Translations under genes and position numbers: made by a program
From: Solidesulfovibrio aerotolerans
GTDB lineage: Bacteria > Desulfobacterota > Desulfovibrionia > Desulfovibrionales > Desulfovibrionaceae
NCBI RefSeq assembly: GCF_009856865.1
Contig: NZ_WVUD01000043.1
Coordinates: 1 to 33,897, forward strand
Direction of reading: 5' to 3'
DNA: 33,897 nt
In this document: piece by piece, positions 10,732 through 33,897 of the stretch
How the letters are laid out: each line of letters opens with the position of its first letter
Numbering within the stretch: the stretch's first letter is position 1
Notes under the pieces: generated by a model
What the model saw: only the letters and a program-made list of their open reading frames with translations
What the model was told of the DNA's origin: nothing
The model's database searches: none

Positions 10732-10743
10732 GCGCCTACTTTC

Positions 10744-15213: not shown

Positions 15214-15677
15214 GAAAAAAATATTTTCCACTTGATCCAAGCGCACCGCCGCCGCTTCGGGCCACCGTAGCCCGCCGCGTCCGTTTCGAGGAAGCCGACC
15301 CACTCGGCATTGTGTGGCACGGGCGTTACGCAAGTTATTTCGAAGATGCTCGCGAAAGTCTAGGCAACTCCCTAGGCATTGGCTACGTCGACTTCTTTGC
15401 TAAGGGTTACAGTATACCGTTGCGCCATCTGAGCGTGGACTTCTTGTCTCCTCTCATCTATCCAGAAGAATTCACCGTCGAAGCTATTCTGCACTGGACA
15501 GAGGCCATGCGCCTTAATTACGAGTTTGTCCTGCGTGGCCCCGATCAGGATATACGCGCCACAGGCTGCACGATCCACCTGCTGGTTGATTCAAAGCTGT
15601 CCTTGCAAATGACGATGCCGATTTTTTACCGTGATTTCCTCGACTGTTGGCGTGCTGGAACGCTTTTTCGTTCATGA
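15210..15677 (+). CDS. 4-hydroxybenzoyl-CoA-type (YbgC-like) thioesterase
   Basis: A 155-residue hotdog thioesterase. The 4HBT signature FEEADPLGIVWHGRYASYFEDAR runs at about 26-48 (shown by landmarks Asp30, GIVWHGRY and YFEDAR), with Asp30 as catalytic residue. Such thioesterases hydrolyse acyl-CoA or acyl-ACP. In aryl polyene clusters (ApeK/ApeL type genes) they may release or edit chains. Overlaps on both sides are ATGA. Confidence 0.88.
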   Translation: MRKKYFPLDPSAPPPLRATVARRVRFEEADPLGIVWHGRYASYFEDARESLGNSLGIGYVDFFAKGYSIPLRHLSVDFLSPLIYPEEFTVEAILHWTEAMRLNYEFVLRGPDQDIRATGCTIHLLVDSKLSLQMTMPIFYRDFLDCWRAGTLFRS

Positions 15678-17038: not shown

Positions 17039-18195
17039 TCAACAACCTTCGAGTATGCATTCTTATACCCGTTTACAACCATGGAGCCACTCTGCGCACC
17101 GTGGTGACGCAAGCTCTTGCCATCCATCCATATGTACTCGTGGTGGACGATGGATCAAGTGACGGAGGCGGGGCAACTCTGGCCGATCTTCCGATTATCC
17201 TGAAAAGGCACCCGGAAAACCGGGGCAAAGGTGTGGCCATAATGACTGGGGCAGCCGAGGCTGTACGACTCGGCTACACGCACATGATTACTCTGGACGC
17301 TGATGGGCAGCACGACCCCCGGGACGTCGCGATGTTCCTCCCCATCATTGATGCGGCCCCCATGGCGATCATCGTGGGAGCGCGCGATTTCAATATCCCC
17401 AATGTTCCTCGTTCCTCCCGGTTCGGCCGTCGGTTCTCCAACTTTTGGTTGCGGGTTCAAACCGGACAGATACTCGACGATGTGCAATCAGGATTTCGTG
17501 CCTATCCCCTGAACGTCCTCCTGGCTCTCGACCTTGGTGAGACCCGCTATTCGTTTGAAGTGGAGGTGTTGGTCAGGGCTGCCTGGGCCGGCTTTCCGCT
17601 TTGCGAAGTCCCCATCTCTGTCTATTATCCACCGCGTCACGCTAGGATCTCGCACTTTGACGCCTTCTGGGACAATGTGCGCATCAGTCGGCTGAATACG
17701 AAGTTGACCATTAGGGCTATGATGCCACTGCCCCAACAAAAGCTATGCCTGAATCGCACTGGGAGCGTCAGTGCCATTCATCCGCTCAGGTCCCTACATC
17801 TACTTCTGGCCGAAAGGGAAACACCTATAAACCTGGCCCGATCCGTCGCGTTCGGCGTCCTCGTGGGGGCACTTCCTTTGCCGGGGCTTTCCTGCATCAT
17901 CATCCTGTTGGCCTCCGGTTATCTAGCCCTGAACAAGTACGCCGCCTTGGCGGCCAACCAGTTGTGCATCCCCCCCTTTGTCCAGGCCGCTTGCGTTATG
18001 ACGGGCTTTTATTTCCAACATGGACGGTGGCTCACAGAATTTTCCGTCCAGACCCTTGGCTATCAGGCGGGTCAGCGTCTCTTCGATTGGATTCTTGGGT
18101 CGCTTGTCGTGGCTCCAGTCCTGGCCCTGGCCATCGGTCTGCTGGTGTATCTCCTGGCCCTACCGATACGATATTCACTTAAGGGAAATCCGTGA
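17035..18195 (+). CDS. GT2-family glycosyltransferase fused to a DUF2062 membrane domain
   Basis: A 386-residue fusion. The N-terminal 230 residues are a GT-A glycosyltransferase: VCILIPVYNHG at 7-17, VVDDGSSDGG at 36-45, and the metal-binding DADGQHD at 88-94. The C-terminal 130 residues have three or four hydrophobic helices with the DUF2062 pattern (LARSVAFGVLVGALPLPG). It probably transfers a sugar to a lipid or the polyene head at the inner membrane. Similar GT2 proteins are common in aryl polyene clusters. It overlaps the preceding gene by ATGA and the next by GTGA. Confidence 0.87.
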   Translation: MINNLRVCILIPVYNHGATLRTVVTQALAIHPYVLVVDDGSSDGGGATLADLPIILKRHPENRGKGVAIMTGAAEAVRLGYTHMITLDADGQHDPRDVAMFLPIIDAAPMAIIVGARDFNIPNVPRSSRFGRRFSNFWLRVQTGQILDDVQSGFRAYPLNVLLALDLGETRYSFEVEVLVRAAWAGFPLCEVPISVYYPPRHARISHFDAFWDNVRISRLNTKLTIRAMMPLPQQKLCLNRTGSVSAIHPLRSLHLLLAERETPINLARSVAFGVLVGALPLPGLSCIIILLASGYLALNKYAALAANQLCIPPFVQAACVMTGFYFQHGRWLTEFSVQTLGYQAGQRLFDWILGSLVVAPVLALAIGLLVYLLALPIRYSLKGNP

Positions 18196-19085
18196 TCCCC
18201 GCTTCCCGATGGTCGAGTCGCAGCCTTGGCTCGCGGTTGCAACATGATTTTTTTTACGCCTGCATCCGTCTGGGAGGATGGCGTTTGGCCTATGTGGTCT
18301 TGGCGGCAGTGGTGCTCTTTTACACATTGCTCCCGTCGGTGCGAAAGAGGTCCCATCCTTATCTCTCTCGGCGATTCCCTGGAGCAAGTCGGACAGCAAT
18401 GTTCAGGCATACCTACCGGTTAAACTTCACTTTCGGCAAAGTCCTAGTGGACCGGGCTGTGCGAGGAATTGTCGGACTCGGAAAGGTGGAAGCTTCCCTG
18501 GAAGACACACAACATTTCCTACAACTTCTGGACGAGGGCCGGGGCCTTATTGTCATCACCGCCCATGTCGGCGCATGGCAATGGGCCATGTCCGAACTAT
18601 CCTTCACCGGCCGACGGATGCACGTGCTGTATAGGCGTGACGTCGGAGATGTGGACCGGCAGTATTTTGAGCATTCCGAAGAAGCTGAACCACCGCATTT
18701 TATAGACCCATGTTCCGACTTCGGGGGGGTCATCGAAATCATGGCCGCCTTAAAAGCCGGAGAGGTTGTTTGCGCCATGGGAGACCGCGTCATGGGAGAC
18801 TCAGGCAACACTGTGGAAGCGCCCCTTTTCGATGGAACGATACACTTGCCCCTCGGACCATTCGTCATCGCAGCGAAACTCGGGACGCCAGTGGCCCTGG
18901 TCTTCGTGCCACGGACTGGTCCGTGCCGGGCACAAGTCCTCGTGCCACGTGTTTTCGAGGAGACACAAGGCATTGATCCGAAACTGATGGTCTTCGGCCT
19001 CGCCAGGGAGCTTGAGAAGTTCGCGCAGGAGAATCCTTATCAATTTTTTAATTATTATGACCTGTGGGACTTGCCACAGGCCTGA
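18192..19085 (+). CDS. LpxL-like (LABLAT superfamily) lysophospholipid/lipid acyltransferase
   Basis: A 297-residue protein with an N-terminal membrane helix (about 33-50). It follows the lipid A acyltransferase family: AHVGAWQWAM aligns with the catalytic HX4E/D box, but the acid is Gln130 (His125 retained). FGGVIEIMAALKAG, VCAMGDR and PLGPFVIAAKLG are the later conserved blocks. Aryl polyene clusters carry such an acyltransferase, presumed to load the polyene onto a lipid. Loss of the acid may reduce activity or reflect a subgroup. Start is GTG overlapping the glycosyltransferase stop. Confidence 0.82.
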   Translation: MIPASRWSSRSLGSRLQHDFFYACIRLGGWRLAYVVLAAVVLFYTLLPSVRKRSHPYLSRRFPGASRTAMFRHTYRLNFTFGKVLVDRAVRGIVGLGKVEASLEDTQHFLQLLDEGRGLIVITAHVGAWQWAMSELSFTGRRMHVLYRRDVGDVDRQYFEHSEEAEPPHFIDPCSDFGGVIEIMAALKAGEVVCAMGDRVMGDSGNTVEAPLFDGTIHLPLGPFVIAAKLGTPVALVFVPRTGPCRAQVLVPRVFEETQGIDPKLMVFGLARELEKFAQENPYQFFNYYDLWDLPQA

Positions 19086-19131
19086 GCAGCGCCCGAGTCA
19101 CGATTAGGTAACAACCAACGCCGAGGAAAGA

Positions 19132-19380
19132 ATGCAGCTTCGTCAACAAGTGAAAGAAGCCTTGATCAAGGATCTGAACCTCCAATCCATCACGCCGGAG
19201 GGAATTGAGGACGACGCACCACTCTTTGGCGACGGCCTGGGTTTGGATTCCCTGGACGCCGTGGAACTGGTGGTACTCGTGCAAAAGCGTTTTCATGTTG
19301 AAATCAAAGACATGGATGAGGGGCGCGTTGCCTTTGCTTCCGTCAACACGCTCGTCAAATTTATCGAGGAGCGCCGGTAA
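19132..19380 (+). CDS. Acyl carrier protein (ACP2)
   Basis: An 82-residue ACP with Ser40 in GLGLDSLDAVEL. It follows the LpxL-like gene after 46 bases, the widest gap in the operon, and has its own clear ribosome site (GAGGAAAG five bases before ATG). It lies two bases before KS3, so it is probably the dedicated partner of the KS/CLF pair. Confidence 0.93.
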   Translation: MQLRQQVKEALIKDLNLQSITPEGIEDDAPLFGDGLGLDSLDAVELVVLVQKRFHVEIKDMDEGRVAFASVNTLVKFIEERR

Positions 19381-19382
19381 CG

Positions 19383-20552
19383 ATGCCTCGAACTCCGGCC
19401 CTTGCCACCGTCACCGGCATCGGGTGCGTCTGCGCGGCGGGGCGCTCCCTGGAAGCGGTCCTGGACAACCTGGAGGCCAATCCGCCTGTACCCGAACCAC
19501 CAAAACGTTTTTTAGAAGTCGTGGAGACGCCTTACCCGGTATTCGAGGTAAGGGATGACCTTGAACCGCCTGCAGACCATGGCCTAGCCCTCCTCTTGGA
19601 AAGCGCCTTGCAAGCAGTTGCCACCGCAGGTCTCGCTCCAAAAGATCTACTTTGTAAATGTGTAGGAATCTGCATTGGATCATCGGTGGGATTCGCCGTC
19701 AATTATCTCCCCCTGTACAAAGCTTGGCACCAGGGCAATGCGCTTCCCAAAGCTTTGCTCGACGTATTTAGACACTCCAACTACGCCCTAAGCCTTAAGG
19801 AGCGACTGGGGCTCACCGGGCCGTGCCAGTTGGTGGCCAATGCATGTGCCTCAGGTACGGACTCCATTGGTATCGGTGCGTCTTGGATCGCCTCCGGCAT
19901 GTGCGACATGGTCTTAGCCGGCGGTGCAGAGAGCCTCTCAATTGTCAGCTATCTCGGATTTAGCCGCCTGATGATCGCCGATACCGCCCCATGCCGTCCT
20001 TTCGATCGCACGCGAAACGGCCTTAATCTGGGCGAAGGCGCGGCATTATTTCTGCTGGAACCAGCCGCTACACCACGACCTGGATTGGGATATATCCGAG
20101 GTTATGGTTCGGCCAGCGACGCTTTTCATCTCACCGCTCCGCATCCCGCAGGGCGGGGTCTACGGCGCGCCATGGCAGAGGCTATGCGGCAGGCGGCGGT
20201 CACGCCCCGGGAGGTCGCCTTCATCAACGCTCATGGCACTGGCACTCGCGACAATGACAAGGTGGAAGGCCTCGTCATTAGAAACTTGCTTCCAGACATC
20301 CCGGTACTGGCTACCAAAGGGGCCACAGGACACACGCTGGGCGCAGCTGGAGCCATTGAGGCGAGCATCACTCTGGGCTGCCTGAACAGAGGTACCATTC
20401 CAGCATCACACGGCTTCTGTAAATCGGATCCTGAGGTCGGGGTCAATCCGACGACTCATCCAGTGAAGCTGGAAAGCCGCATAGCCCTGTCCGATTCACT
20501 GGCCTTCGGCGGTAGCAATGCCGTCCTAGTGCTTGAGGGAAAACGAAAATGA
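19383..20552 (+). CDS. Beta-ketoacyl-ACP synthase (KS3, ApeO-like)
   Basis: A 389-residue condensing enzyme with a complete triad: Cys155 in NACASGTD, His284 in NAHGTGTRDND and His317 in KGATGHTLGAAG (Lys312). It is the most classical of the three KS proteins. Its stop overlaps the start of a shorter KS-like protein without the active cysteine, giving the KS/CLF order known from aryl polyene clusters where ApeO and ApeC form a heterodimer. It should therefore build the main polyene chain. Confidence 0.9.
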   Translation: MPRTPALATVTGIGCVCAAGRSLEAVLDNLEANPPVPEPPKRFLEVVETPYPVFEVRDDLEPPADHGLALLLESALQAVATAGLAPKDLLCKCVGICIGSSVGFAVNYLPLYKAWHQGNALPKALLDVFRHSNYALSLKERLGLTGPCQLVANACASGTDSIGIGASWIASGMCDMVLAGGAESLSIVSYLGFSRLMIADTAPCRPFDRTRNGLNLGEGAALFLLEPAATPRPGLGYIRGYGSASDAFHLTAPHPAGRGLRRAMAEAMRQAAVTPREVAFINAHGTGTRDNDKVEGLVIRNLLPDIPVLATKGATGHTLGAAGAIEASITLGCLNRGTIPASHGFCKSDPEVGVNPTTHPVKLESRIALSDSLAFGGSNAVLVLEGKRK

Positions 20553-21391
20553 TACCCTTGGCTATTCGATCATACGGCATTGCCGGCATAGCGGAGGGAC
20601 TGCCCGGGTATATTCAGTGGTCTGGACAGCCGAGCATCCGAACTGCTGTCGGAGGCGCGAAGGCAGTGAATGAAGCGCTCAAGACCTACTATTCGCCGCT
20701 GAAACTACGGAGACTCGATGCATATCTCCAGACAGCACTGCTGGCCGCGAAGCTGGCCTTGGAGGCCTACGGAGAACCGCCCATCGATCTAGGCCTCATA
20801 GTCTGCACAGGATATGGGCCCATGCCTGCTACCAATGTCTTCATGGATTCCTTCTTGGACTTTGGCCCTCAGGGGGCATCGCCAACTGCGTTTTCTCAAA
20901 CTGTACACAATGTAGCAGCATCGACCATTTCTATGTTTCTAGATTTCCAAGGCCCGGTTCTGTCTGTGAGCCAGCCCGGGCTCGCATGTTCCAGCGCGCT
21001 GCTCACGGCGCAATCATGGATCGGCCAAGGTTTGGTCAAGACCGTGTTGTTCGGCGCGGTGGACGACGCTCAACCATTTTTACGTCTCCTCTTCCCACAA
21101 TGCAAACAAAGCAAGATCACTTACGATCCCATTGCCACGTTCGTAGTCTTGACCAAAAGGCATGCCACACAGGGACTGCTGGAGTTGGTGGAAGTTGGGT
21201 TTCCTTCTCCCACGTCGAACACGAAACCGCCTCCTACGCACGCTTGCTCAACTCCCGCTTGGATAGTGACGCAATTGCTCTCGGCCTTGGACCCGAGCCA
21301 AGGAGGACGTAAAATATCAATCAAGGAAACCTGGAATGGTTTAACAGCCGCAATATGTGTCCGGGCCACCGCTTCAGGAGACAGGTCATGA
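20549..21391 (+). CDS. Chain-length-factor-like KS partner (ApeC-like)
   Basis: A 280-residue protein with only the N-terminal half of a thiolase-fold ketosynthase. Aligned with KS3, the catalytic Cys position is Gly144 in SVSQPGLACSSALL; a Cys lies three residues later (Cys147). The His residues of the C-terminal half are missing with that half. It is therefore probably a non-catalytic heterodimer partner of KS3 that sets chain length, like the ApeC partner of ApeO. It overlaps both neighbours by ATGA. Confidence 0.85.
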   Translation: MIPLAIRSYGIAGIAEGLPGYIQWSGQPSIRTAVGGAKAVNEALKTYYSPLKLRRLDAYLQTALLAAKLALEAYGEPPIDLGLIVCTGYGPMPATNVFMDSFLDFGPQGASPTAFSQTVHNVAASTISMFLDFQGPVLSVSQPGLACSSALLTAQSWIGQGLVKTVLFGAVDDAQPFLRLLFPQCKQSKITYDPIATFVVLTKRHATQGLLELVEVGFPSPTSNTKPPPTHACSTPAWIVTQLLSALDPSQGGRKISIKETWNGLTAAICVRATASGDRS

Positions 21392-22533
21392 TACCCACGC
21401 GCCGGGGTATCCTGCGCATGCTCATGAGCTTGGCGAGAACTCTGGAGCAGCATGCTTTCAACACTGAACCAGAAAGGCTTGCAGCGCGGGCAGTGGCTCT
21501 GTTCGGACTAGAGGAGTTGCCAACCATAAATGCTTCGTGTGAATCTAAACCGCTTGCAAATCAATTGGACATCCTGGCGTCCGACATACAAGACCGCTGG
21601 CCCGGTGAGAGCCTCGTGTTCAGGACTTCCGGCTCCACAGGCGTCCCCAAGGATTGTGTTCAGAGCCTCACTTTGCTTGTCCAAGAGGCTCGTTTTCTTG
21701 TTGGATTGTTCCGTGATAGTCGCCGCATCGTTGGGCTGGTGCCAGCGCACCATATCTACGGATTTCTTTTTTCCGTGCTGTTGCCAGAATTGCTCGACGT
21801 GCCAGTCACTGATTTGGATGCACTGTCTCTAGGCTCTCTTTCAAACCTGCTCCAACCTCGGGATGTCGTGATTAGTTTTCCTCTGCTATGGAAGAAGATG
21901 GGGGAACTTAGCATAATCTATCCATCAGGAGTCACCGGCGTAACCTCCACCGGCCCATGTCCGGAGAATGTAATCATTAAAGCACTGGAGAGCGGCCTTA
22001 ACCATATGACAGAGATTCATGGCTCCACCGAGACCGGCGGATTAGGTTACCGGTTGGATCATACCCAACCTTACTGTCTCATGAATCATTGGATTCGTTG
22101 TAATGAGTTTGGCTTGCGGCGCTTGCTTCCATCAGGAGAAGCGCCGGTCCCCTTCGACTTCCCAGATATGCTGGCTTGGGAAGGGGTGCGATTCTACCGA
22201 CCAGTTGGCCGTAAGGACAAAGCGATCCAGGTGGCCGGAGTCAATGTTTTTCCCCAACACGTGCGTCGCGTGCTCCTCGAGCATCCCCTGGTGACGGATG
22301 CCGTAGTTCGGCCCATGCGCCCAGAAGAAGGTGATCGACTCAAGGCGTTTATTGTCCCAGTGAATGCTGCACCTTCATCTGATGTTGTCATCCAAATCTT
22401 GCGGGAATATTTGAAAAACAGGCTGACTCCCCCTGAAATTCCAAGGATTTTTACATTCGGAGAAAAAATCCCGCAAAACGATTTCGGCAAAAACACGGAT
22501 TGGTTTTTCACTACAACGCATCGTATTGAATGA
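21388..22533 (+). CDS. ApeH-like acyl/aryl-CoA or -ACP ligase
   Basis: A 381-residue ANL-superfamily enzyme, short for the family (usually about 450-550), lacking much of the first N-terminal subdomain. Core motifs are FRTSGSTGVPK (78-88), HGSTETGG in the middle, GRKDKAIQVAGVNVFP near the hinge, and a C-terminal Lys368 in NDFGK that fits the catalytic lysine. In the E. coli cluster ApeH activates 4-hydroxybenzoate for chain initiation. Here a second ligase of a different subtype is present at 551-2032, so substrate choice between the two is open. The ATG at 21388 overlaps the CLF stop; the longer frame starts inside that gene. It is the last gene of the run. Confidence 0.85.
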   Translation: MIPTRRGILRMLMSLARTLEQHAFNTEPERLAARAVALFGLEELPTINASCESKPLANQLDILASDIQDRWPGESLVFRTSGSTGVPKDCVQSLTLLVQEARFLVGLFRDSRRIVGLVPAHHIYGFLFSVLLPELLDVPVTDLDALSLGSLSNLLQPRDVVISFPLLWKKMGELSIIYPSGVTGVTSTGPCPENVIIKALESGLNHMTEIHGSTETGGLGYRLDHTQPYCLMNHWIRCNEFGLRRLLPSGEAPVPFDFPDMLAWEGVRFYRPVGRKDKAIQVAGVNVFPQHVRRVLLEHPLVTDAVVRPMRPEEGDRLKAFIVPVNAAPSSDVVIQILREYLKNRLTPPEIPRIFTFGEKIPQNDFGKNTDWFFTTTHRIE

Positions 22534-24640: not shown

Positions 24641-24681
24641 CCAAAAAAGAGAATCCCCCGGCGTGAGCCAGGGGTTCTCTT
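24641..24681 (-). terminator. Rho-independent terminator
   Basis: On the minus strand AGAGAACCCC pairs with GGGGGATTCTCT around a short loop and is followed by TTTTTT. It ends transcription of the glycine-rich protein gene that stops at 24689. Confidence 0.8.
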
Positions 24682-24688
24682 GCCGCCG

Positions 24689-24976
24689 TCACTCCCGAAT
24701 CTTGCGATGGAGTTTTTCCATGAGCGACTCGGATGCGCTGGACAGGCCTTGAATGACCAAGGCCGATCCAGTTTCGCCGGCGACCCTGCCAAAGGCAAGG
24801 CCTGAAGCAATACCGGCGGAGACGCCAGCAGCACCGAGGGCGCTTACGGAATAGGTGGTCGCGCCGAACACCCCGAGGAAGGGGGCTGAAACGACCAGCA
24901 ACGGTCCGGTTGCGGCAGCGGCAGCAGCGCCAAGCATGGCGCCGCCGAGAATCATCACCCCTTTGAGTAAAGGCAT
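24689..24976 (-). CDS. Small glycine/alanine-rich membrane protein
   Basis: A 95-residue protein from the ATG at 24976, which has GGAGG seven bases upstream; the longer frame to 25120 overlaps the divergent AAA+ gene and has no ribosome site. Two hydrophobic stretches rich in Gly and Ala (GGAMLGAAAAAATGPLLVV and SALGAAGVSAGIASGLAFG) suggest two close-packed membrane helices, followed by a charged tail ESLMEKLHRK. No known family. It is divergent from, and probably co-regulated with, the AAA+ module. It could be a holin-like or effector-like membrane protein, but that is speculation. Confidence 0.65.
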   Translation of the reverse strand: MPLLKGVMILGGAMLGAAAAAATGPLLVVSAPFLGVFGATTYSVSALGAAGVSAGIASGLAFGRVAGETGSALVIQGLSSASESLMEKLHRKIRE

Positions 24977-25035
24977 TGGGTGCCTCCAGCTTGTAGAAAG
25001 TTGACGATATACCAGGGTAATTTCTCTAACAACGG

Positions 25036-25049
25036 CTTGAATATTCAAG
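25036..25049. promoter_or_regulatory. Perfect 14-base palindrome in the divergent promoter region
   Basis: CTTGAATATTCAAG lies between the divergent membrane-protein gene (start 24976) and the AAA+ gene (start 25120), where a dimeric repressor would act. No regulator gene for it can be named from the window. Confidence 0.45.
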
Positions 25050-25119
25050 TTCTGTATAGAGAAATAGGCCTGTAAGGCGATTTTGCTCGTCAACCCAACT
25101 GACTGGAGGTCTTTTTGCA

Positions 25120-26556
25120 ATGCTGCAAGATTTTTTGAAAGCTGGCTACCCCGCGCTGTGCGTCTTAACCCAAGAGCCAGCCCGGGCTGAAAACACCCTG
25201 CCGTTTGTCGGCATTTGGAGTTTTTTCGCCTGGTGCTGCGCCAAGGGCATCCGCCAAGCCGGGTTCCAGCAAGTCACAGAGGAAATCCGCGACCCGGTCG
25301 AAGCCATCAATTGGCTCTCCGGTCAGCGTGACACTGTCCTTTTGGCCCACAACCTCCACCTATTCCTGGATTCACCTGAAGTCATTCAGGGCGTCCAAAA
25401 CGGCATCCAACTCTGGAAGTCTCGGGGATCATGCCTTGTCATGGTCTCCCCGGTCATCCAGATCCGCCCAGAGCTCAAATCCATCTTTACGGTCATCGAC
25501 CTGCCTTTACCCGACACCGACAGCCTCTATTCGCTGCAACACGATCTCGGGACTCCCCTCAACATCAAACCCAACAAAAAATGCGCACGTTTGGCTCGCG
25601 GACTCACTGAGTTCGAAGCCGAGTGCGCCTATGCCCTGTCGCTGGTCACCAAACGCTACTTCTCTTCTCGCGTCGTTTCCCAACTCAAATCCCAGATCAT
25701 CAGGAAGTCCGGTTTATTGGAAGTATGGGAGCCCGAACATCTCTCCAGCGTTGGTGGGCTGTCGCGGCTAAAGCACTATATCAAAACGCGGGCTCAAGCC
25801 TTTATGCCCGGCAACGAGCATCTGCCTTGCCCCAGAGGCGTCCTCCTTGTGGGACCGCCTGGCACCGGCAAGAGCTTATGCTGCAAAGCCGCCGCCTCCA
25901 TTTTGGGGTGGCCGCTGATCCGTCTGGATATCGGAGCCCTCAAAGGCTCCCTGGTTGGGGAATCAGAACAAAAAATGCGCCAAGCCCTTCGGATTATCGA
26001 GAGCTTCGGCGAATGCGTCTGCTTCCTCGACGAACTTGAAAAGGCCTTCGCCGGGGTCAAATTGTCCGGCGAGACCGACGGCGGTTCCACCTCCGGAATG
26101 TTCAGTCACTTTCTGACCTTCCTGCAGGAGCACCGCTCCCCGGTCTTTGTCATGGCTACAGCCAATGACGTGACCAAACTCCCGCCGGAAACCATGCGGG
26201 CCGGTCGGTTCGACGCCATCTTTCTGGTGGACCTGCCGACCCTGCCCGAACGCCGGGAAATCATCCGCATCGTCTCCAAACGCTACGGCGTCCAGATCCC
26301 TCTGGAATACGCCGAACGCCTCACTGGCTGGTCTGGTTCGGAAATCGAACAACTGGCCAAGGAGACGGCCTTTACGGGCCTGGAGGAGGCTTACCACTCG
26401 ATAGTGCCCCTGTCCCGGACCATGCGCGAGGACATTGAGTCCCTGCGCAATTGGGCGCGCACTCGTGCTCGTCTGGCCAATACGCCGGAAGACGAACCCG
26501 AGGAGTCCCGAAAAATTCGGACCACGGCCGCCCCGGCACCGGCCGGCATCCAATAG
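25120..26556 (+). CDS. AAA+ ATPase, Ycf46-like
   Basis: A 478-residue protein. Residues 1-210 form a degenerate N-terminal domain with a Rossmann-like core (DTVLLAHNLHLFL) as in Ycf46 proteins of cyanobacteria and plastids. The AAA+ module follows: Walker A GPPGTGKS (245-252), Walker B CFLDELEKA with Asp304 and Glu305, sensor 1 Asn349 in ATAND, arginine fingers in MRAGRFD (Arg360, Arg363) and the C-terminal lid to about 440. The key ATPase residues are intact. It heads a plus-strand operon with DUF1257, DUF2997 and DUF3150 genes. Start ATG has GGAGG upstream. Its molecular role is unknown; by analogy it would remodel protein complexes. Confidence 0.85.
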   Translation: MLQDFLKAGYPALCVLTQEPARAENTLPFVGIWSFFAWCCAKGIRQAGFQQVTEEIRDPVEAINWLSGQRDTVLLAHNLHLFLDSPEVIQGVQNGIQLWKSRGSCLVMVSPVIQIRPELKSIFTVIDLPLPDTDSLYSLQHDLGTPLNIKPNKKCARLARGLTEFEAECAYALSLVTKRYFSSRVVSQLKSQIIRKSGLLEVWEPEHLSSVGGLSRLKHYIKTRAQAFMPGNEHLPCPRGVLLVGPPGTGKSLCCKAAASILGWPLIRLDIGALKGSLVGESEQKMRQALRIIESFGECVCFLDELEKAFAGVKLSGETDGGSTSGMFSHFLTFLQEHRSPVFVMATANDVTKLPPETMRAGRFDAIFLVDLPTLPERREIIRIVSKRYGVQIPLEYAERLTGWSGSEIEQLAKETAFTGLEEAYHSIVPLSRTMREDIESLRNWARTRARLANTPEDEPEESRKIRTTAAPAPAGIQ

Positions 26557-26565
26557 GAGGCCGCC

Positions 26566-26988
26566 ATGAGTCACATCTCAAAAATAGAAGTCGCTATCAC
26601 CGACCTTGAAGCCCTTAAAAACGCCTGTCACAGGCTGGGGTTTGAGTTCGTGGAGGGTGCGACCACCTACAGGTGGTACGGCCGCGTGGTTGAACCCGAG
26701 AAATATCCCCTGCCGGAAGGCATGACGGTGGATGATCTCGGCAAATGCCACCACGCCATCCGTGTCCCTGACGCTGATTACGAAATCGGCATCGTCAGGA
26801 GAAACGGCAACTACCTGCTGCTGTTAGACTACTGGGATTCGAAACTGAAAAACCGCGTCGGCGAAAACGGCGGCCGGCTCAAACAAGCCTACGCCATTGA
26901 GCGCACCCTTCGGGAAGCGCGTCGTCGCAACTTCAGAATCACCGAAACCCGCACCGAACACGGCATCCGCCTGACCCTGTCCGCTTAA
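26566..26988 (+). CDS. DUF1257 (Ycf35-like) protein
   Basis: A 140-residue protein matching DUF1257, the bacterial/plastid Ycf35 family, with conserved SHISKIEVAITDLEALKNAC at the N-terminus (start only) and YRWYGR and LLLDYWDSKL later. The family has no established function. It starts nine bases after the AAA+ gene with a TAGGAGG ribosome site. Cyanobacterial genomes and phages also place Ycf35-type genes near Ycf46-type ATPases (from memory), so the pair is likely one functional unit. Confidence 0.82.
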   Translation: MSHISKIEVAITDLEALKNACHRLGFEFVEGATTYRWYGRVVEPEKYPLPEGMTVDDLGKCHHAIRVPDADYEIGIVRRNGNYLLLLDYWDSKLKNRVGENGGRLKQAYAIERTLREARRRNFRITETRTEHGIRLTLSA

Positions 26989-27070
26989 GTCACCCGCCGC
27001 ATCCTCGCGGCCCCATCCACATACCGGCGACAATTACCCGGCGCTCTTCGCGTCAAAGGGGGCTTTTCCC

Positions 27071-27268
27071 ATGAAACAGATCGTCGTGGACATTCGCGAT
27101 GACGGCGAAGTCCGCATCGAGACCAAAGGTTTTTCCGGTCCGGTCTGCCTGGCTGAGTCCCAGTTTTTAAAGGACCTGCTCGGCACTGAGACCGCTCGAA
27201 GTCTGGCCGCGTCGTTTTACCAGCGCGGCGGCGTCACCGTGAAACGTCACATTCCGCTTTGCGGATAA
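27071..27268 (+). CDS. DUF2997 protein
   Basis: A 65-residue protein of the DUF2997 family: MKQIVVDIRDDGEVRIETKG at the start (shortened here to its hallmark VDIRDDGEV) then GFSGPVCLAESQFL. DUF2997 proteins are small, have no known function and regularly neighbour DUF1257. Strong AAAGGGGG ribosome site. Third gene of the AAA+ module. Confidence 0.8.
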   Translation: MKQIVVDIRDDGEVRIETKGFSGPVCLAESQFLKDLLGTETARSLAASFYQRGGVTVKRHIPLCG

Positions 27269-27286
27269 CCCCAAAGGAGATGCACC

Positions 27287-28186
27287 ATGAGTTACGACAC
27301 CCTGTTTGCCAAGGCCTGTCTGCTGCAACTGTCCACGTCCTGCTGGACGGGAAGCCGGTCCCTCAACTCGGCTGTCCTGGAAAGCGTGGGCAATACCGAA
27401 TGGCTCAAGGGCAAGAAGTTCCTCATTAACCCGGAACTGCTCTCGCCGATCAAGACCAGTATTCAGAAGGCCCGGCAGCTGCTCCAGCGCAGCGCCCTGC
27501 CGTTTCCCCTGTCTGGCCTGTATCTGATCCCCAAGGACTCCATCGCCGACATTGACGGCCGCATGGACGCCATCAAGGACGAGTACTGGGACAAGGTCGA
27601 TACCTTCATCGACTTCTACCAGGAGGCCCGCGAGGAAGCCCGGCAAGCCCTGGTCGACCTCTTCGCCGAAGCCGACTATCCGCTCAACATGCGGGAGAAG
27701 TTCAGCTTCGAGTGGCGCTTCGTTACCCTGGCCACCCCCAAGAAGTCCGGCATCCTGACTCCCGAAATCTACGAACGGGAGAAGGAGAAGTTCCAGAACC
27801 TCATGGACGAGGCCAAGGAGCTTTCCATGGCCGCCCTTCGTGAGGAGTTCGGCCACATCGTCAGCCACCTGGTGGATCGTCTCTCCGGCAACGGCGACGG
27901 TAAGCCCAAGGCTTTCAAGTCGACCATGCTGGGAAAGATGCACGAGTTCCTGGATACCTTTGGGGACCGCAACGTCTTTGACGACGACAAGCTCACCGAA
28001 CTGACCGTTCAGGCCAAGGAGATCGTCGGCGGCATGACCGGCTATTCCATCTCATACAACGATGTCCTGCGTCAGCAGGTCACGGGCGAGATGGGACGGC
28101 TTAAGTCCGCCATCGACGCCGCCATTGAGGAACTGCCCCGCCGCAGGATTCGCCTCGACGGGGATGCCTTGCAACAGGCCGCATAG
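27287..28186 (+). CDS. DUF3150 protein
   Basis: A 299-residue protein of the DUF3150 family, largely helical and charged; landmarks are YLIPKDSIADIDGRMD, DTFIDFYQEAREEARQAL, FSFEWRF and KPKAFKSTMLGKMHEF. DUF3150 genes often occur beside MoxR-type ATPases in phages and ICEs (from memory). Here the ATPase is Ycf46-like instead. No catalytic motif is visible. It follows DUF2997 by 18 bases with GGAG before the ATG and is the last gene before a strong terminator-like hairpin. Confidence 0.78.
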   Translation: MSYDTLFAKACLLQLSTSCWTGSRSLNSAVLESVGNTEWLKGKKFLINPELLSPIKTSIQKARQLLQRSALPFPLSGLYLIPKDSIADIDGRMDAIKDEYWDKVDTFIDFYQEAREEARQALVDLFAEADYPLNMREKFSFEWRFVTLATPKKSGILTPEIYEREKEKFQNLMDEAKELSMAALREEFGHIVSHLVDRLSGNGDGKPKAFKSTMLGKMHEFLDTFGDRNVFDDDKLTELTVQAKEIVGGMTGYSISYNDVLRQQVTGEMGRLKSAIDAAIEELPRRRIRLDGDALQQAA

Positions 28187-28200
28187 CTGAAACCCACACC

Positions 28201-28245
28201 AAGCGCGGGGGAGACATCACCCAATGTCAGACCCCGCGCTTTTCT
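28201..28245 (+). terminator. Intra-operon terminator or attenuator
   Basis: A perfect ten-base stem, AAGCGCGGGG pairing with CCCCGCGCTT, is followed by TTCT. It separates the DUF3150 gene from the nuclease gene, so the two modules may be transcribed at different levels. Confidence 0.7.
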
Positions 28246-28265
28246 ATTGCTCCAAAGGAGGCAGC

Positions 28266-29135
28266 ATGATCAGGTTCTCAAAATCAAAGCTCAACACGTT
28301 TCTGTCATGCCCTGAAAAATATTACCTCTTTTACGAACTGGGGCTGCGTTCCCCGAAATCCTCACCGACCCTGGTCGAAGGCTCCTGCATCCATCATCTG
28401 GTGGAAGCCGGCGTTATGTACCGGGACCGGATCGACGACGTGCTCGAACAAGCCTCTCTGTCCTTTTGGCTGGAGAACACCTTCGAGCGCTGCGGCTACG
28501 AGACCCAAGGCGAATACCTGGCCGCCCAGGCCAAGTGCTTCATGCAGGCCCAGGCTTTCCTGGACCAGCTTGGTCCGGTGACCGCCCGGCATATCGAGCT
28601 TCGGGTCGATACCCCGCTCATTCACCCCATCACTCTGGTCGAGCATCCGGAGATTACCCTCACCGGGTTTATCGACATGGTGCTCGTCGGGCCTGAAGGG
28701 GATCACTGCGTGGTGGACCTCAAATCGGTCCAGCGCATGCCCCGCGAGGGCATGTCCCGGGTTGCCCTGGAACTGACACTCTACGCCTACCTGTATTCCT
28801 TGCCGTTTGAGGCTCAGGCCTTGCCCACCATCCCTGTGGCCCTGGTTTACCTCATTCGGACCCGAACGCCCCAGGTGCATTTCGACGAGTCGCGCCGGTC
28901 CATGGCCCATTTCGTCGAACTCTACAACATCTGCCGCAAAGTCGCCCAAGACATTGAGCAGGGGCATTTCTGGAAGAATCCGGGAATCCACTGCTCGTGG
29001 TGCGATGCGGCCAGCGCCTGCTACGGCGAGGAGCAAACCGCCATCGCCACCTTTGGCCGGGAAACCTGGGATCGCTATCGCGAAGACCAGGAGCGTCGCC
29101 AGGAGATCAATCTCCCCGACGCGGTCAATCTCTGA
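28266..29135 (+). CDS. PD-(D/E)XK nuclease, RecB/Cas4-like, candidate Fe-S protein
   Basis: A 289-residue protein of the PD-(D/E)XK superfamily. The N-terminus SKLNTFLSCPEKYYLFY is typical for RecB/Cas4-type nucleases. The catalytic set is His43/44, Asp137 (FIDMVL), Asp151 and Lys153 (VVDLKSV). Four cysteines, Cys15, Cys243, Cys246 and Cys252 (CSWC and ACYG), are positioned as in AddB/Cas4 iron-sulphur domains. It is not near a CRISPR array; next to a RecA-like ATPase it resembles the exonuclease half of a phage recombination module. ATG at 28266 has AAAGGAGG upstream; an earlier in-frame ATG (28224) lies in the hairpin. Confidence 0.87.
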   Translation: MIRFSKSKLNTFLSCPEKYYLFYELGLRSPKSSPTLVEGSCIHHLVEAGVMYRDRIDDVLEQASLSFWLENTFERCGYETQGEYLAAQAKCFMQAQAFLDQLGPVTARHIELRVDTPLIHPITLVEHPEITLTGFIDMVLVGPEGDHCVVDLKSVQRMPREGMSRVALELTLYAYLYSLPFEAQALPTIPVALVYLIRTRTPQVHFDESRRSMAHFVELYNICRKVAQDIEQGHFWKNPGIHCSWCDAASACYGEEQTAIATFGRETWDRYREDQERRQEINLPDAVNL

Positions 29136-29147
29136 AAGGAGGTTCCC

Positions 29148-29330
29148 ATGCGCTGTTTCTGGTGCAAAGATATCATCCTCCCTGAGGAGGATTGCGTCAT
29201 GCTCCCCGGGAGCTGTTCCAGGGCGTTAGACTCGGAAGAGGCGGAAACTATGTTCCATCCCGCCTGCTTGTTCAGATTTGAACGGCAGATTCTGTGGGGC
29301 AAAACCAAGGAGGATTTCGATGTTTCATAA
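29148..29330 (+). CDS. Small zinc-binding protein
   Basis: A 60-residue protein with CFWC at 3-6, later Cys and His residues (GSCSRA and FHPACLF), enough for a treble-clef-type zinc site. It overlaps the next gene by 11 bases and has GAAAGGAGG before its ATG, so it is translated. Function unknown. Confidence 0.65.
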   Translation: MRCFWCKDIILPEEDCVMLPGSCSRALDSEEAETMFHPACLFRFERQILWGKTKEDFDVS

Positions 29331-30291
29331 AGCCCATCGCGGCACTTCGAAACTCCGGCTGGCCCTCATGGGGCCGGCCGGCTCCGGCAAGACCTTTTCG
29401 GCCTTGCAAATTGCCAAGGGACTCGGCGGCAGGATCGCCATGATCGACACCGAACGGGGCAGCGGATCGCTGTATTCGCATCTCGTCGAATTCGACGTGA
29501 CCGAAATTACCCCGCCGTTTTCCCCAGACAGATATGTGGAAGCCATCAGTGCCGCCGAGCAGGCTGGCTACGGTGTGCTCATCATCGACAGCCTCAGCCA
29601 CGCCTGGGCTGGCCCGGGTGGCGTTCTGGACATCCATGACAAGGTGACCAAGGCCGTGCGGAATTCGTTTACCGCCTGGCGTGAGGTCACGCCAGACCAC
29701 AACCGGCTGGTCGACGCCATGCTGGGCTCGGCCTGCCATGTCATCGTCACCCTGCGGACCAAGACCGCCTACGAGGTGGTGAGCGAAGGGGGGAAGACCA
29801 AGGTCGCCAAGATCGGCCTTGCCCCGCAACAACGCGATGGGCTCGAATACGAGTTCACCGTCGTATTTGACCTGTCCATCGACGGGCATGTGGCCACCGC
29901 CACCAAGGACCGAACCAGCCTTTTCGATGGTAACTACTTTACACCCGATGCTGAGACCGGTATCAAAATACTGGAGTGGTTGAATGCTGGAGGGGCTGCG
30001 TCGGGAAATGACGCTGCTCAGACCGTGGCGGATGACCAACCTGTCGAACCGGAACGCAAAAACGCATTCTTGCTCGACACCCTGGACCGCATGTTCAACC
30101 AGTTAGGCCTTGGCACCCATGTCGAGGCGTATCAGGCCTACGTATGCGAGCGCTACGGCGTCTCCGGCCTTGAGGACCTTGAGGCCAACCAATTGACCGA
30201 GCAGCTTAACCTGCTGCGGCAATGCAAGATGCGAGAAGAGAAGCTGAAGCAATTAGTAACTATTTTAGAGCAGCACAAGAAAGCTGCTTAA
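29320..30291 (+). CDS. RecA-like ATPase, Sak4-type recombination protein
   Basis: A 323-residue protein. P-loop GPAGSGKT at 18-25, Walker B-like VLIIDSLSH near 98-106, and a RecA-type core with VIVTLRTKT. The overall layout matches phage Sak4-like recombinases or AAA_24-type ATPases, which with a PD-(D/E)XK exonuclease form a phage homologous-recombination module. The C-terminal 90 residues are also found in the decayed copy at 4263-4576. ATG at 29320 has AAGGAGG; the longer frame to 29278 lies in the upstream gene. Confidence 0.85.
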   Translation: MFHKAHRGTSKLRLALMGPAGSGKTFSALQIAKGLGGRIAMIDTERGSGSLYSHLVEFDVTEITPPFSPDRYVEAISAAEQAGYGVLIIDSLSHAWAGPGGVLDIHDKVTKAVRNSFTAWREVTPDHNRLVDAMLGSACHVIVTLRTKTAYEVVSEGGKTKVAKIGLAPQQRDGLEYEFTVVFDLSIDGHVATATKDRTSLFDGNYFTPDAETGIKILEWLNAGGAASGNDAAQTVADDQPVEPERKNAFLLDTLDRMFNQLGLGTHVEAYQAYVCERYGVSGLEDLEANQLTEQLNLLRQCKMREEKLKQLVTILEQHKKAA

Positions 30292-31384: not shown

Positions 31385-31536
31385 GGTCGGTGAGTATAAA
31401 TCTCTGCGCTTGAGCGCAACCGGCGTCTCTGCTACCCCGTCGCCATGCTCAAGACGCTGAAAACGAAAAGCCCTAGGCGATCCTGAAAGTCTCCCGACGG
31501 CAGTACGAAACAAAAAGGCCCTGGGTAGCGGCCAAC

Positions 31537-31656
31537 ATGCCACGCCAGAAGTTTGAGGAGCTCCTAACCAGCCTACCAGATGGGTTTGTGGATCATTGTC
31601 ATCGTGACGCCGAAGCCGACCGACTGGTCGAAGCGATCTTTGGGAAGGTGGATTAG
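31537..31656 (+). CDS. 39-residue protein, duplicated cassette unit 1
   Basis: A 39-residue ORF, PRQKFEELLTSLPDGF at the start and RDAEADRLVEAIFGKVD at the end. Its paralogue at 32317 has the same length and 15 of the last 17 residues identical or nearly so, which supports real coding. Probable helical small phage-type protein; function unknown. Confidence 0.6.
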   Translation: MPRQKFEELLTSLPDGFVDHCHRDAEADRLVEAIFGKVD

Positions 31657-31659
31657 ATC

Positions 31660-31833
31660 ATGGAATGGCTCATCATCGGCGTCGTCGTGCTCTTCGTCCT
31701 GGCCCTGGCCGGTATGCTCATCTGGAAGGCCAAACACCAGCCCGGTAGTGTCCACGGGGACTTCCGCTTCGACCAACACAAGGGGTTGGAGACTTCCAAA
31801 CGCGGCCTGTTCGACAGGACTAAGTTTCGGTGA
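31660..31833 (+). CDS. Small single-helix membrane protein
   Basis: A 57-residue protein. Residues 3-24 form a strongly hydrophobic helix (WLIIGVVVLFVLALAGMLIW) followed by a charged tail. It starts four bases after the 39-residue gene. No counterpart is present in unit 2, so it is either inserted in unit 1 or lost from unit 2. A holin-like or small regulatory protein is possible. Confidence 0.6.
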   Translation: MEWLIIGVVVLFVLALAGMLIWKAKHQPGSVHGDFRFDQHKGLETSKRGLFDRTKFR

Positions 31834-32057
31834 GTAGGGCAGCTCTAATCCTTAATCTTAGCCAGTGCCCCGACATGCACGCCCTGCTTCTGGAAGCTAT
31901 CACAACCCTTCGTCATGCTGGCTTCGATGATCAGGCGCATGAACTGCATCAACGTGGCCTGAATATACCATCCTGGCACCGCATGGCGATCTTGGTGGCT
32001 GAGTACATGGAATTGGACATCATCGTGCGAGGGAACCCTTCTGACAATATCTTTTAA
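31830..32057 (+). CDS. 75-residue protein, duplicated cassette unit 1
   Basis: Start is GTG overlapping the stop of the membrane-protein gene (GTGA). Core DMHALLLEAITTLRHAGF and HELHQRGLNIPSW correspond to DMYSLHLMAIGVLRQDGL and EELHHRVLGVASW in the paralogue at 32437. Probably helical; function unknown. Confidence 0.6.
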   Translation: MSRAALILNLSQCPDMHALLLEAITTLRHAGFDDQAHELHQRGLNIPSWHRMAILVAEYMELDIIVRGNPSDNIF

Positions 32058-32316
32058 TCACGGCCGGACCAATAACATGAGACATATGCGATAGACAGCC
32101 GCCGCCTCCTCCCCAATCAGGCGCGGTCAGGCCGGCCCGGCGGAGGAAAGCTACACCTCTCTTCTGCCAGGCCTTGTTCGTCTGAGCGCTTGAACAGCAA
32201 CTGGCGTTGATGCTACCCGTCGCCATGCTCAAACGACTGACGCAGGGAAAACCCAGGGCTAAGCTCCGCATCACCCGCAAATAGATGAAGGCCGGCAGCC
32301 CTGGATGGTTGCAGGC

Positions 32317-32436
32317 ATGAACCGCAAAAAGTTCGAGGAGATCATCGTGGAATTGCCCGATGAAACCATTGACGCCCTTTACCGTGACGCCGAGGCTGAC
32401 CGGTTGGTTGAAGCTATTTTCGGGAAGGTGGATTAG
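32317..32436 (+). CDS. 39-residue protein, duplicated cassette unit 2
   Basis: Same length as its paralogue at 31537: NRKKFEEIIVELPDET, then RDAEADRLVEAIFGKVD. The stop is followed directly by the ATG of the next gene. Confidence 0.6.
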   Translation: MNRKKFEEIIVELPDETIDALYRDAEADRLVEAIFGKVD

Positions 32437-32634
32437 ATGATTACGCCCATCCTCGTAGTCAGTCCCGACAGTTGTTTGGACATGTATTCCTTGCACCTCA
32501 TGGCAATAGGCGTTCTCCGCCAGGATGGACTCCATGCTCGTGCTGAAGAACTGCACCATCGCGTCTTGGGTGTGGCTTCCTGGGACCAGATGATCGAGTT
32601 GGTAGGAGAGTTCGTGGAACTGAGGTGGATGTAG
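32437..32634 (+). CDS. 65-residue protein, duplicated cassette unit 2
   Basis: Paralogue of the 75-residue protein at 31830 with the same pattern of a helical core and a LxxxxGLxxxAxELHxRxL repeat-like segment. Starts immediately after the 39-residue gene, so the pair is translationally coupled. Confidence 0.6.
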   Translation: MITPILVVSPDSCLDMYSLHLMAIGVLRQDGLHARAEELHHRVLGVASWDQMIELVGEFVELRWM

Positions 32635-32962: not shown

Positions 32963-33007
32963 TCTTTCACGCCGGTAACAGGGGTTCAAATCCCCTTGGG
33001 GACGCCA
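32963..33007 (+). other. 3' half of a tRNA-Glu gene, probable attachment site
   Basis: From TCTTTCACG (anticodon loop carrying TTC) through GCCGGTAACAGGGG, TTCAAATCCCCT and GGGGACGCCA, the sequence matches the anticodon-to-CCA part of tRNA-Glu(UUC). The D-arm and 5' acceptor half are absent, so this is a fragment and not a working tRNA. Tyrosine-recombinase elements often use tRNA 3' ends as attB and leave such a fragment at one end of the island. Confidence 0.8.
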
Positions 33008-33016
33008 AGAAATTCA

Positions 33017-33050
33017 GCGGGTTACCTGTCCAGGGTAACCCGCTTTTTCT
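33017..33050 (+). terminator. Rho-independent terminator downstream of the tRNA-Glu fragment
   Basis: GCGGGTTACC, a short loop and GGTAACCCGC followed by TTTTTC, a ten-base stem. It could be the original tRNA-Glu terminator carried along with the tRNA 3' end. Confidence 0.85.
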
Positions 33051-33101
33051 TTGGTCCACACGAAGTCCACATTTACGACTTCAATAGTCTGGTATTCCCT
33101 C

Positions 33102-33770
33102 TCACTCTTGGGAAGCTTTCTGGATGCTGACCACCTTCGTGGGGCCTCGCTGCCCCATGACAGTTTCCATAGCTTCCTGGGTCTGCTTGAGACCAAGGGT
33201 CTGGAGGTAGCGAGTCGTGGTCTGGGGGCTTTTATGACGAAGGACAGCTTGGGCCACCGCCACGGGCTGTCCCTCACGGTAAAGAAGACTCGCCGTGAGG
33301 TGACGGATCGCGTGAAACCCGAACTCCCTGACCCCTGCTTTCTTGCACAGTCGCTCCATGAGATGTTGCCGATTTGTAAACGGCTTACCCCGGTATTCTT
33401 TGCAGAACGCATGCTCCTCCAGGTTTACGAACACGTACTCGGAGGCAATGGGTCGGTGTTCCCACCACGCCATAAGAACCTTCTTGAGTCGTTGCACCAT
33501 GGGGACCGGGTCAGGTTCCAGGTCACCTCCTGCGCGCTTCCTCGTCCAAAGGGTGACGGTATTCCCTGCGAAATCGATATCCGCCCATTTGAGCCGGAAA
33601 ACTTCGCCGCGCCGTGCAGCAAGAAACAGCAGTGTGAGCAGCATCACTCGGTCCTGACCGCTGGCAGCCTCGTATACAGCCCAGAAGTCCTCTTCTGGTG
33701 GCACATACCGGGGCTGGCGCTTCTCCGGGAAGCGGTCGATGATCCGGAATGGGCACTGCTGCTCAGGGAA
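33102..33770 (-). pseudogene. Tyrosine recombinase (phage-type integrase), 5'-truncated
   Basis: Only the C-terminal catalytic domain is present: AARRGEVFRLKWAD (catalytic Arg), FHAIRHLTASLL (HxxR), LRHKSPQTTTRYLQ (His and the nucleophilic Tyr). Full-length integrases are near 340-400 residues; here about 220 remain. The N-terminal core-binding domain is missing because the gene runs into an IS21-like end at about 33771. The frame continues to a TTG at 33800, but that part lies in the IS terminus. The tRNA-Glu fragment is about 100 bases past its stop. Confidence 0.8.
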
Positions 33771-33897
33771 TGTCAAACAGCACCGAAAAGTGACCCCCAA
33801 TCAGCGTCCAAAATTGACCCCCTCGATGTTGATGTCCGCCCTCCATCTAATCGGGGGGGGGGGGCGCCTCATTGGCTTCTGTGCTTGAGCCTCCAGC
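33771..33897 (-). mobile_element. Probable end of an IS21-family element
   Basis: TGTCAAACAGC begins the element at 33771, followed by two similar internal repeats, AAAAGTGACCCCC and AAAATTGACCCCC, typical of IS21-family multiple terminal repeats. It continues past the window edge, so the transposase genes cannot be seen. A run of 12 G bases (33853-33864) lies inside it. Confidence 0.6.

Follow-up and report, generated by a model that had tools for sequence, protein, structure and literature searches.

Chaperones of the MoxR-VWA type, such as NorQ/NorD and RavA/ViaA, join an AAA+ engine to a dedicated partner and remodel or mature a client (accessible parts of PMC13036017 and PMC3893208), and the accessible part of PMC13036017 gives both target remodelling and metal insertion as activities of these machines. 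We liken to them a locus of Solidesulfovibrio aerotolerans (RefSeq assembly GCF_009856865.1), at positions 25,120–28,186 of contig NZ_WVUD01000043.1; this contig of 33,897 nt is the window, i.e., the whole stretch of DNA analysed here, and it represents one entire contig (C99 in our numbering) of a 4.6-Mb genome. The locus holds consecutive genes for a Ycf46-like AAA+ ATPase and for proteins of families DUF1257, DUF2997 and DUF3150 (hereafter the quartet, the first three being the trio), which form a conserved unit on one strand. It differs from NorQ/NorD and RavA/ViaA, and is not of the MoxR-DUF3150-VWA type, in that no VWA match was found among the ten open reading frames (ORFs) scanned at 24.2–31.4 kb.

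DUF1257 and DUF2997 belong to the same families as the cyanobacterial and plastid proteins Ycf35 and DUF2997, and the ATPase probably to that of Ycf46. In Synechocystis, DUF2997 and ycf35 are adjacent and lie beside the ferredoxin gene fed7 (accessible part of PMC4284462), whereas the window has the pair on a mobile element, in the company of the ATPase, DUF3150 and genes for recombination. Modules composed of a MoxR-type ATPase (CbbQ/CobS-like), DUF3150 and a VWA protein (CobT-like or DUF2201) also have DUF3150 beside an AAA+ ATPase and its partner, often with a nuclease or an ERF protein; in comparison, the AAA+ ATPase of the window is of a different type, and DUF1257 and DUF2997 replace the VWA protein. 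The IetAS system includes a protease. Both IetAS and SgiAT pair an AAA+ ATPase with a subtilisin-like protease (SgiAT according to the accessible part of PMC10954446) and resemble the window ATPase in the AAA+ domain; however, the match falls far below the curated cut-off and there is no protease partner among the ORFs scanned. We found no published description of the four-gene set among the papers listed, nor any mention of DUF3150, in the open-licence literature, which leaves most subscription papers outside. The parts are named families, and we regard their combination of AAA+ engine, putative adaptor and putative client subunit as a new variant of a known architecture.

The four genes and their products

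The preliminary description of this DNA listed four consecutive plus-strand genes, which was borne out by the ORFs and by Pfam matches over the cut-offs, narrowly so for DUF1257. These genes, and the two that follow them, are:

25120..26556, plus strand: Ycf46-like AAA+ ATPase, 478 amino acids (aa); Pfam AAA (PF00004), 91.7 bits (cut-off 21.2); phrog_8638, E 5e-92
26566..26988, plus strand: DUF1257 (Ycf35-type) protein, 140 aa; PF06868, 24.3 bits (cut-off 22.2)
27071..27268, plus strand: DUF2997 protein, 65 aa; PF11211, 40.2 bits (cut-off 24.1)
27287..28186, plus strand: DUF3150 protein, 299 aa, mostly helical; PF11348, 51.9 bits (cut-off 24.9)
28224..29135, plus strand: PD-(D/E)XK (Cas4/RecB-like) nuclease, the downstream neighbour; PF12705, 85.9 bits; phrog_69, exonuclease
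29314..30291, plus strand: Sak4-like RecA-fold ATPase; AAA_24, 76.9 bits; phrog_1366 and phrog_124, Sak4-like

Intergenic gaps within the quartet are 9, 82 and 18 bp. The ORF of the Sak4-like gene opens at a TTG at 29278, and was scanned from the ATG at 29314.

In the ATPase, an N-terminal region of around 200 residues precedes a Cdc48-type AAA+ core whose motifs are intact. In a four-sequence alignment, the key Gly and Lys of the Walker A motif GPPGTGKS (residues 245–252), as well as Asp304/Glu305, Asn349 and Arg360/Arg363, are invariant, in agreement with the intact Walker and arginine-finger residues noticed earlier; the functional names of these residues (Walker A, Walker B for Asp304/Glu305, and those attached to Asn349 and Arg360/Arg363) are the ones that we presume. 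The protein scores as AAA, with AAA_5 remaining below its cut-off (19.1 versus 22 bits). Ycf46 carries an inactive AAA-like domain at its N terminus. Relatives from cyanobacterial plasmids match the window ATPase over nearly its full length (33.7% identity over 95%). The order of the motifs is normal in 114 of the 119 rows of our ATPase tree set, permuted in two and unclear in three. A permuted core, with the Walker B/alpha-3 segment before Walker A, was observed in seven ATPases (L033:5237-6832, L039:1871-3391 and loci L221–L225), all of which have DUF3150 nearby.

The DUF1257 match is partial, covering profile positions 33–95 of 103 and passing the cut-off narrowly; homologues at the corresponding place, 51% identical in a Manganitrophus plasmid, strengthen this weak call. 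For DUF3150, the match covers profile positions 3–186 of 257. The Cys of the DUF2997 family, residue 26 here, is present in every row covering that column (74 distinct rows aligned), and so is Ser2 of DUF1257 in its own alignment (77 distinct rows). AlphaFold2 models had a predicted local distance difference test (pLDDT) score of 91.6 for DUF1257 and 87.5 for DUF3150. A profile from the DUF1257 set retrieved nothing convincing from PDB sequences (best E 0.025). PADLOC yielded no match for DUF1257, DUF2997 or DUF3150, and traces of Cas4 and DruK for the downstream nuclease.

Conservation of the quartet

A scan of viral contigs with the ATPase alignment confirmed 252 relatives, of which the best 80 were kept; removal of 10 rows with identical ATPases left 70 loci. 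DUF1257, DUF2997 and DUF3150 accompany the ATPase in 19 of them, DUF1257 and DUF2997 in seven, and none of the three was detected in 44, some contigs being short. All 19 viral quartets are on one strand, and 15 have the order of the window. Among phage records, 143 match the ATPase, nine of them over at least 80% of the query; Rhodobacter capsulatus phages are among the matches. All four families occur in a Tunturiibacter phage, and the trio in a Rhizobium phage. The quartet is also found, in the same order, in Manganitrophus plasmids, one of them with split frames; in two of these plasmids, the annotated genes around the quartet include none for virion proteins. In the 119-row ATPase tree, 48 rows lack a detected partner, and 44 of these group in one branch with other conserved neighbours. 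In the viral ATPase branch without detected DUF1257 (L014, L015 and most of L067–L123), a neighbour of about 272 aa occurs in 35 of 55 loci and another of 114 aa in 21 of 55; they resemble DUF3150 and DUF2997 weakly (hhalign E 0.004 and 0.001, probabilities 8% and 17%, respectively) and are perhaps divergent members of these families.

Over the cut-offs, DUF2997 was present in 43, DUF1257 in 38 and DUF3150 in 30 of 395 genomes of the host phylum. We fetched 40 regions around DUF2997 from 39 of the 43 genomes (all except G000, G394, G356 and G178): 27 contain the trio, 10 the quartet, two only DUF1257 and DUF2997, and one only DUF2997, with the ATPase present in 37 and DUF1257 in 39 of the 40. 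From a comparison of coordinates, 11 of the 30 genomes with DUF3150 have it at most 5 kb from DUF2997. The check for independent scattering in other genomes that the preliminary description had proposed thus found the genes staying together, in 37 of 40 DUF2997 regions and in 26 of the 70 viral loci, the latter selected by their ATPase. DUF1257 and DUF2997 are near-constant companions of the ATPase in the genomes sampled, DUF3150 being added in many mobile versions. Likewise, Ycf46 and Ycf35 had been presented as cyanobacterial and plastid proteins; they do occur there, but the trio is not a cyanobacterial speciality, being found in roughly one in ten genomes of this phylum (DUF2997 in 43 of 395), partly beside an Hsp70-like gene.

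Scans with DUF3150 retrieved few loci. With DUF3150 alone, genome contigs yielded six loci, five of them with DUF1257 and DUF2997; the ATPase is present in three of these five and was not detected on the other two. The DUF3150 alignment retrieved two viral loci, both of the MoxR-DUF3150-VWA type. The breadth of the distribution therefore rests on the viral ATPase scan and the phylum sample.

Around DUF2997, a cluster of 505-aa proteins is present in 17 of the 40 regions (scanned member, HSP70 at 20.1 bits, just under the cut-off of 20.6) and one of 673-aa proteins in 12 (scanned member, HEAT_2 at 34.4 bits, cut-off 27.7); these counts leave out a few regions, such as L145 and L151, in which DUF2997 was not kept in gene calling. 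The one Hsp70-like neighbour scanned has HscA as its best NCBIfam match, at 26.0 bits versus a cut-off of 743. Loci such as L153 and L154 have, next to the trio, an Hsp70-like and a HEAT-repeat gene together with a further small one of about 67 aa (10 loci).

A second copy and selection on the genes

Block 24643–30291 of the window is repeated in contig C111 of the same genome with 96.8% DNA identity. The ratio of replacement to silent substitution rates (dN/dS) between the copies is 0.04 for the ATPase, 0.18 for DUF1257, 0.22 for DUF2997, 0.07 for DUF3150, 0.03 for the nuclease and 0.06 for the Sak4-like gene. Differences are thus mostly silent, indicating that the proteins have been maintained and that the six genes are under purifying selection. 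In the C111 copy (L012 2243-14906), about 12.7 kb separates the Sak4-like gene from the next shared block and includes transposase-like and chemotaxis-type genes, as labelled from a reading of the ORFs; C111 also lacks most of the integrase stretch (window 33023–33771).

DUF3150 with a second engine

We fetched 20 regions, from 19 genomes, around DUF3150 matches without nearby DUF2997, one of the matches being slightly under the cut-off. A MoxR-like ATPase is present in 17 of them, 15 of these being related to the protein of locus L187 and two to queries from plasmids or phages. A VWA protein occurs in 16 (14 CobT-like, two of the DUF2201 type), with neither found in three regions that are short or at contig ends. 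One scanned MoxR-type example has AAA_5 plus CbbQ_C, and CobT, domains. A Cupriavidus plasmid and a cyanophage both have DUF3150 situated between the ATPase and the VWA protein. Among the plasmids with DUF3150, 39 records that include three from Manganitrophus, one of the 36 Burkholderiales-type records was examined. DUF3150 therefore also occurs with a different engine, a MoxR/CbbQ-type ATPase plus a VWA protein, and its usual association with MoxR ATPases, as noted in the first description, holds.

Relatives of the L187 nuclease occur in 12 of these 20 regions, and an ERF annealing protein in seven. With Pfam, PD-(D/E)XK was matched at 22.5 bits by the L187 protein (cut-off 22) and strongly by a separate L197 protein, with no match in L190; the nuclease label of distant members is therefore unsure. 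The window parallels the MoxR-type layout with a Ycf46 engine, comprising DUF3150, nuclease and Sak4-like genes. Additionally, the quartet lies beside a nuclease in L169 and, with split frames, beside a nuclease and an ERF gene in L174. In genome G430, from the host family, there are five DUF3150 loci (L190, L191 and three more places), which suggests a multi-copy mobile element.

A tree with 61 DUF3150 rows grouped the MoxR-CobT rows in one clade (100/100), including L197, labelled so although without a CobT match, and the MoxR-VWA rows in another (95/76); the Ycf46-type rows fell in several branches, with four label changes needed. This topology fits more than one exchange of engine, an inference limited by long branches and midpoint rooting. 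DUF3150 might then be the constant, client-facing subunit, with the AAA+ engine exchanged more than once between Ycf46 plus DUF1257 and DUF2997, on one side, and MoxR plus VWA, on the other, and with one Ycf46-type lineage permuted; we rate the chances of this scenario as slightly short of even.

The mobile element and its surroundings

Three further features delimit or adjoin the module:

24689..24976, minus strand: small Gly/Ala-rich hydrophobic protein, 95 aa, an ORF divergent from the module
32969..33008, plus strand: tRNA-Glu 3′-end (att-like) sequence, probable right end of the element
33102..33800, minus strand: part of a tyrosine integrase; PF00589, 71.7 bits

A search of 59 genomes, including that of the window, found the only other full-length orthologue in the sister species G001 (73%), plus a fragment match in G026; in a further genome of the same family from the wider phylum sample, G196, the set is present but its frames for the ATPase and DUF3150 are split (L174). 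G001 contains the same six genes in the same order, in an element of about 14.8 kb bounded by two 40-base copies of the 3′ end of tRNA-Glu(CTC) (L029:4405 and 19176), each with one mismatch to that of the window; the element has its own integrase just inside the tRNA side, and no virion genes were seen in it. Sequences with at most one mismatch to that at 32969 are found next to the second copy, at either end of the G001 element, in two tRNA-Glu genes of the window genome and in one further contig. The window sequence probably marks the right-hand end of the element that carries the module. This element appears to be tRNA-Glu-targeted; only this right-hand att-like sequence, and no left end, was found in the window. 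The surroundings had been described as a phage-like region, and nuclease and Sak4-like recombination genes do adjoin the quartet; nevertheless, there is no recognisable prophage, the G001 genes are in a tRNA-Glu integrative element, and no virion genes were found among the window ORFs scanned with Pfam and PHROGs, up to the contig end where the window stops.

A second integrase, located outside the right end of the G001 element, is 88% identical to that of the window over 196 aa, whereas the element's own integrase is only 53% identical; the window integrase therefore probably belongs to an adjoining element. It is interrupted at 33771 by a sequence of 127 bases (33771–33897) that is found with 99–100% identity in eight other contigs of the genome, within 210 bases of the contig start in six of them. 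These bases are probably the end of an insertion sequence, at which the assembly broke.

The small hydrophobic gene mentioned earlier as divergent from the set is real as an ORF, and shows seven silent and no replacement differences with the second copy; nonetheless, it probably does not belong to the core set, because it has no match in the G001 element. Imperfect repeats (84–86% over 56–57 bp) occur about 780 bp apart, at 31406–31658 and 32186–32438, in a stretch of small ORFs, of which 31830–32057 and 32437–32634 appear related by eye. Further upstream, positions 4706–22533 (approximately 4.7–22.5 kb) include genes for ketosynthases, an ApeP-like dehydratase, an MMPL exporter, LolA and acyltransferases; this chromosomal cluster looks like one for aryl polyene synthesis, a name inferred from sequence.

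A putative remodelling machine

We propose that the four genes specify one ATP-driven protein-remodelling machine carried by mobile elements, whose likeliest client would be the downstream nuclease and annealing pair. As a whole, we give this proposal an even chance; its remodelling step is the better supported part, and a probable one, while the recombination client is weaker and rather doubtful. The ATPase would assemble as a hexamer, with DUF1257 and DUF2997 serving together as its cofactors, in the role that the VWA protein has in NorQ/NorD-type machines, and DUF3150 would be the client-facing subunit, kept by the element when the engine is exchanged. ATP hydrolysis would then remodel or mature a client complex of the element. 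Should this client be, in the window lineage, the nuclease and strand-annealing pair encoded directly downstream, the module would help the element to recombine or replicate. The Hsp70-like and HEAT neighbours of some chromosomal trios may represent a chaperone-like setting, which we count in favour of remodelling. The self-contained ATP-driven system envisaged in the preliminary description agrees with a conserved set around the ATPase; among the purposes suggested there, which ranged from recombination and protein remodelling to anti-phage activity, support is partial and, for defence, poor.

Several results weigh against this proposal. We surveyed 147 same-strand neighbours of 32 quartet loci, excluding the window, with up to five of the nearest genes of at least 110 aa from each; in the 25 of 71 Pfam families shown, PDDEXK_1 appeared three times and ERF once. 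Additionally, 27 of the 40 DUF2997 regions have the trio without DUF3150, indicating that the engine has work without it. DUF1257 occurs in only three plasmid records, all from Manganitrophus, versus 39 for DUF3150, and it gave no tblastn match in phage records, though profiles detect it in two phages. There was no convincing PDB fold match for DUF1257 or DUF3150 (best Foldseek E 0.58 and 0.51, respectively), and no fusion protein holding two of the families was found. Finally, the trees carry long branches and midpoint roots. As for a general link between quartets and recombination, it was not borne out across quartets, nuclease or annealing neighbours not being general; RadC and ParB-HTH, with four each, were also among the 147 neighbours (25 of 71 families shown).

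Alternative explanations

The alternatives rank as virion assembly, then cofactor insertion, then conflict functions. As a virion- or packaging-assembly chaperone of phages, the module would be a relic of phage origin whose AAA+ ring matures a structural complex, in keeping with the many ATPase relatives on viral contigs (252 confirmed, 80 kept) and the 143 matching phage records. Of 41 loci with DUF1257, 13 have a gene of a 308-aa family upstream of the ATPase, which could also fit, as could a Treponema plasmid relative of the ATPase that is unaccompanied by the other three families and has baseplate-like genes around it, and the MoxR-VWA pair cited for an archaeal phage tail system in the accessible part of PMC7159879. 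However, no virion gene appears among the scanned window ORFs, in the G001 element or among the annotated genes near two Manganitrophus quartets, and the reading of the 308-aa gene as a terminase was dropped, the scanned member having no Pfam match and no terminase occurring among the neighbour families shown (25 of 71 for Pfam, 25 of 112 for PHROGs). We consider this explanation unlikely.

Somewhat less likely still is a maturation machine that inserts a cofactor or metal, along the lines of NorQ/NorD or CobS/CobT, in which the DUF2997 Cys would be the transfer site. That Cys is present in all rows covering its column (74 distinct rows aligned), but a single conserved Cys is a weak argument, and the window element showed no recognisable metalloprotein client. 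In one Acidobacteria quartet, the gene before the ATPase is of the radical-SAM/4Fe-4S kind, and its cluster is present in five of 41 loci, although it is absent from the other 36, some on short contigs. The same explanation would accommodate the DUF2997-ycf35-fed7 cluster of Synechocystis (accessible part of PMC4284462), the CbbQ_C and CobT domains of one scanned MoxR alternative, and the HscA match of the scanned Hsp70-like neighbour, far below its cut-off (26.0 versus 743 bits).

A conflict system, either for anti-phage defence or as an addiction (toxin-antitoxin-like) pair, in the manner of IetAS or SgiAT, is improbable. The module lies on a genomic island, and the SGI1 island encodes an AAA+ antitoxin of the SpoVK/Ycf46/Vps4 superfamily (accessible part of PMC10954446); likewise, with PADLOC the AAA domain of the ATPase matches IetA at 49.5 bits and, weakly, TRIP13 at 18.3 bits. 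Nevertheless, the IetA match is limited to the AAA domain (residues 231–417), the NCBIfam antiphage ATPase model scores 45.8 bits versus a cut-off of 510, so that the protein does not classify as IetAS, the other three proteins have no PADLOC match, there is no protease partner among the ORFs scanned, and phages and viral contigs often carry the ATPase themselves. Lastly, that these are passenger genes without present function on a decaying element, as might be read from the adjoining integrase cut by a repeat, the lack of a left end in the window and the split ATPase and DUF3150 frames of the same-family relative L174, is very hard to reconcile with intact motifs and a dN/dS of 0.03–0.22 for all six genes.

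Under the proposed remodelling machine, three DUF families without established function gain a common context, as parts of an AAA+ machine that also comprises a partner pair and a client subunit. The resemblance to MoxR/VWA modules makes the pattern of protein binding, and DUF3150 as the common piece, directly testable, and brings plastid Ycf46 and Ycf35 within reach of bacterial and phage genetics.

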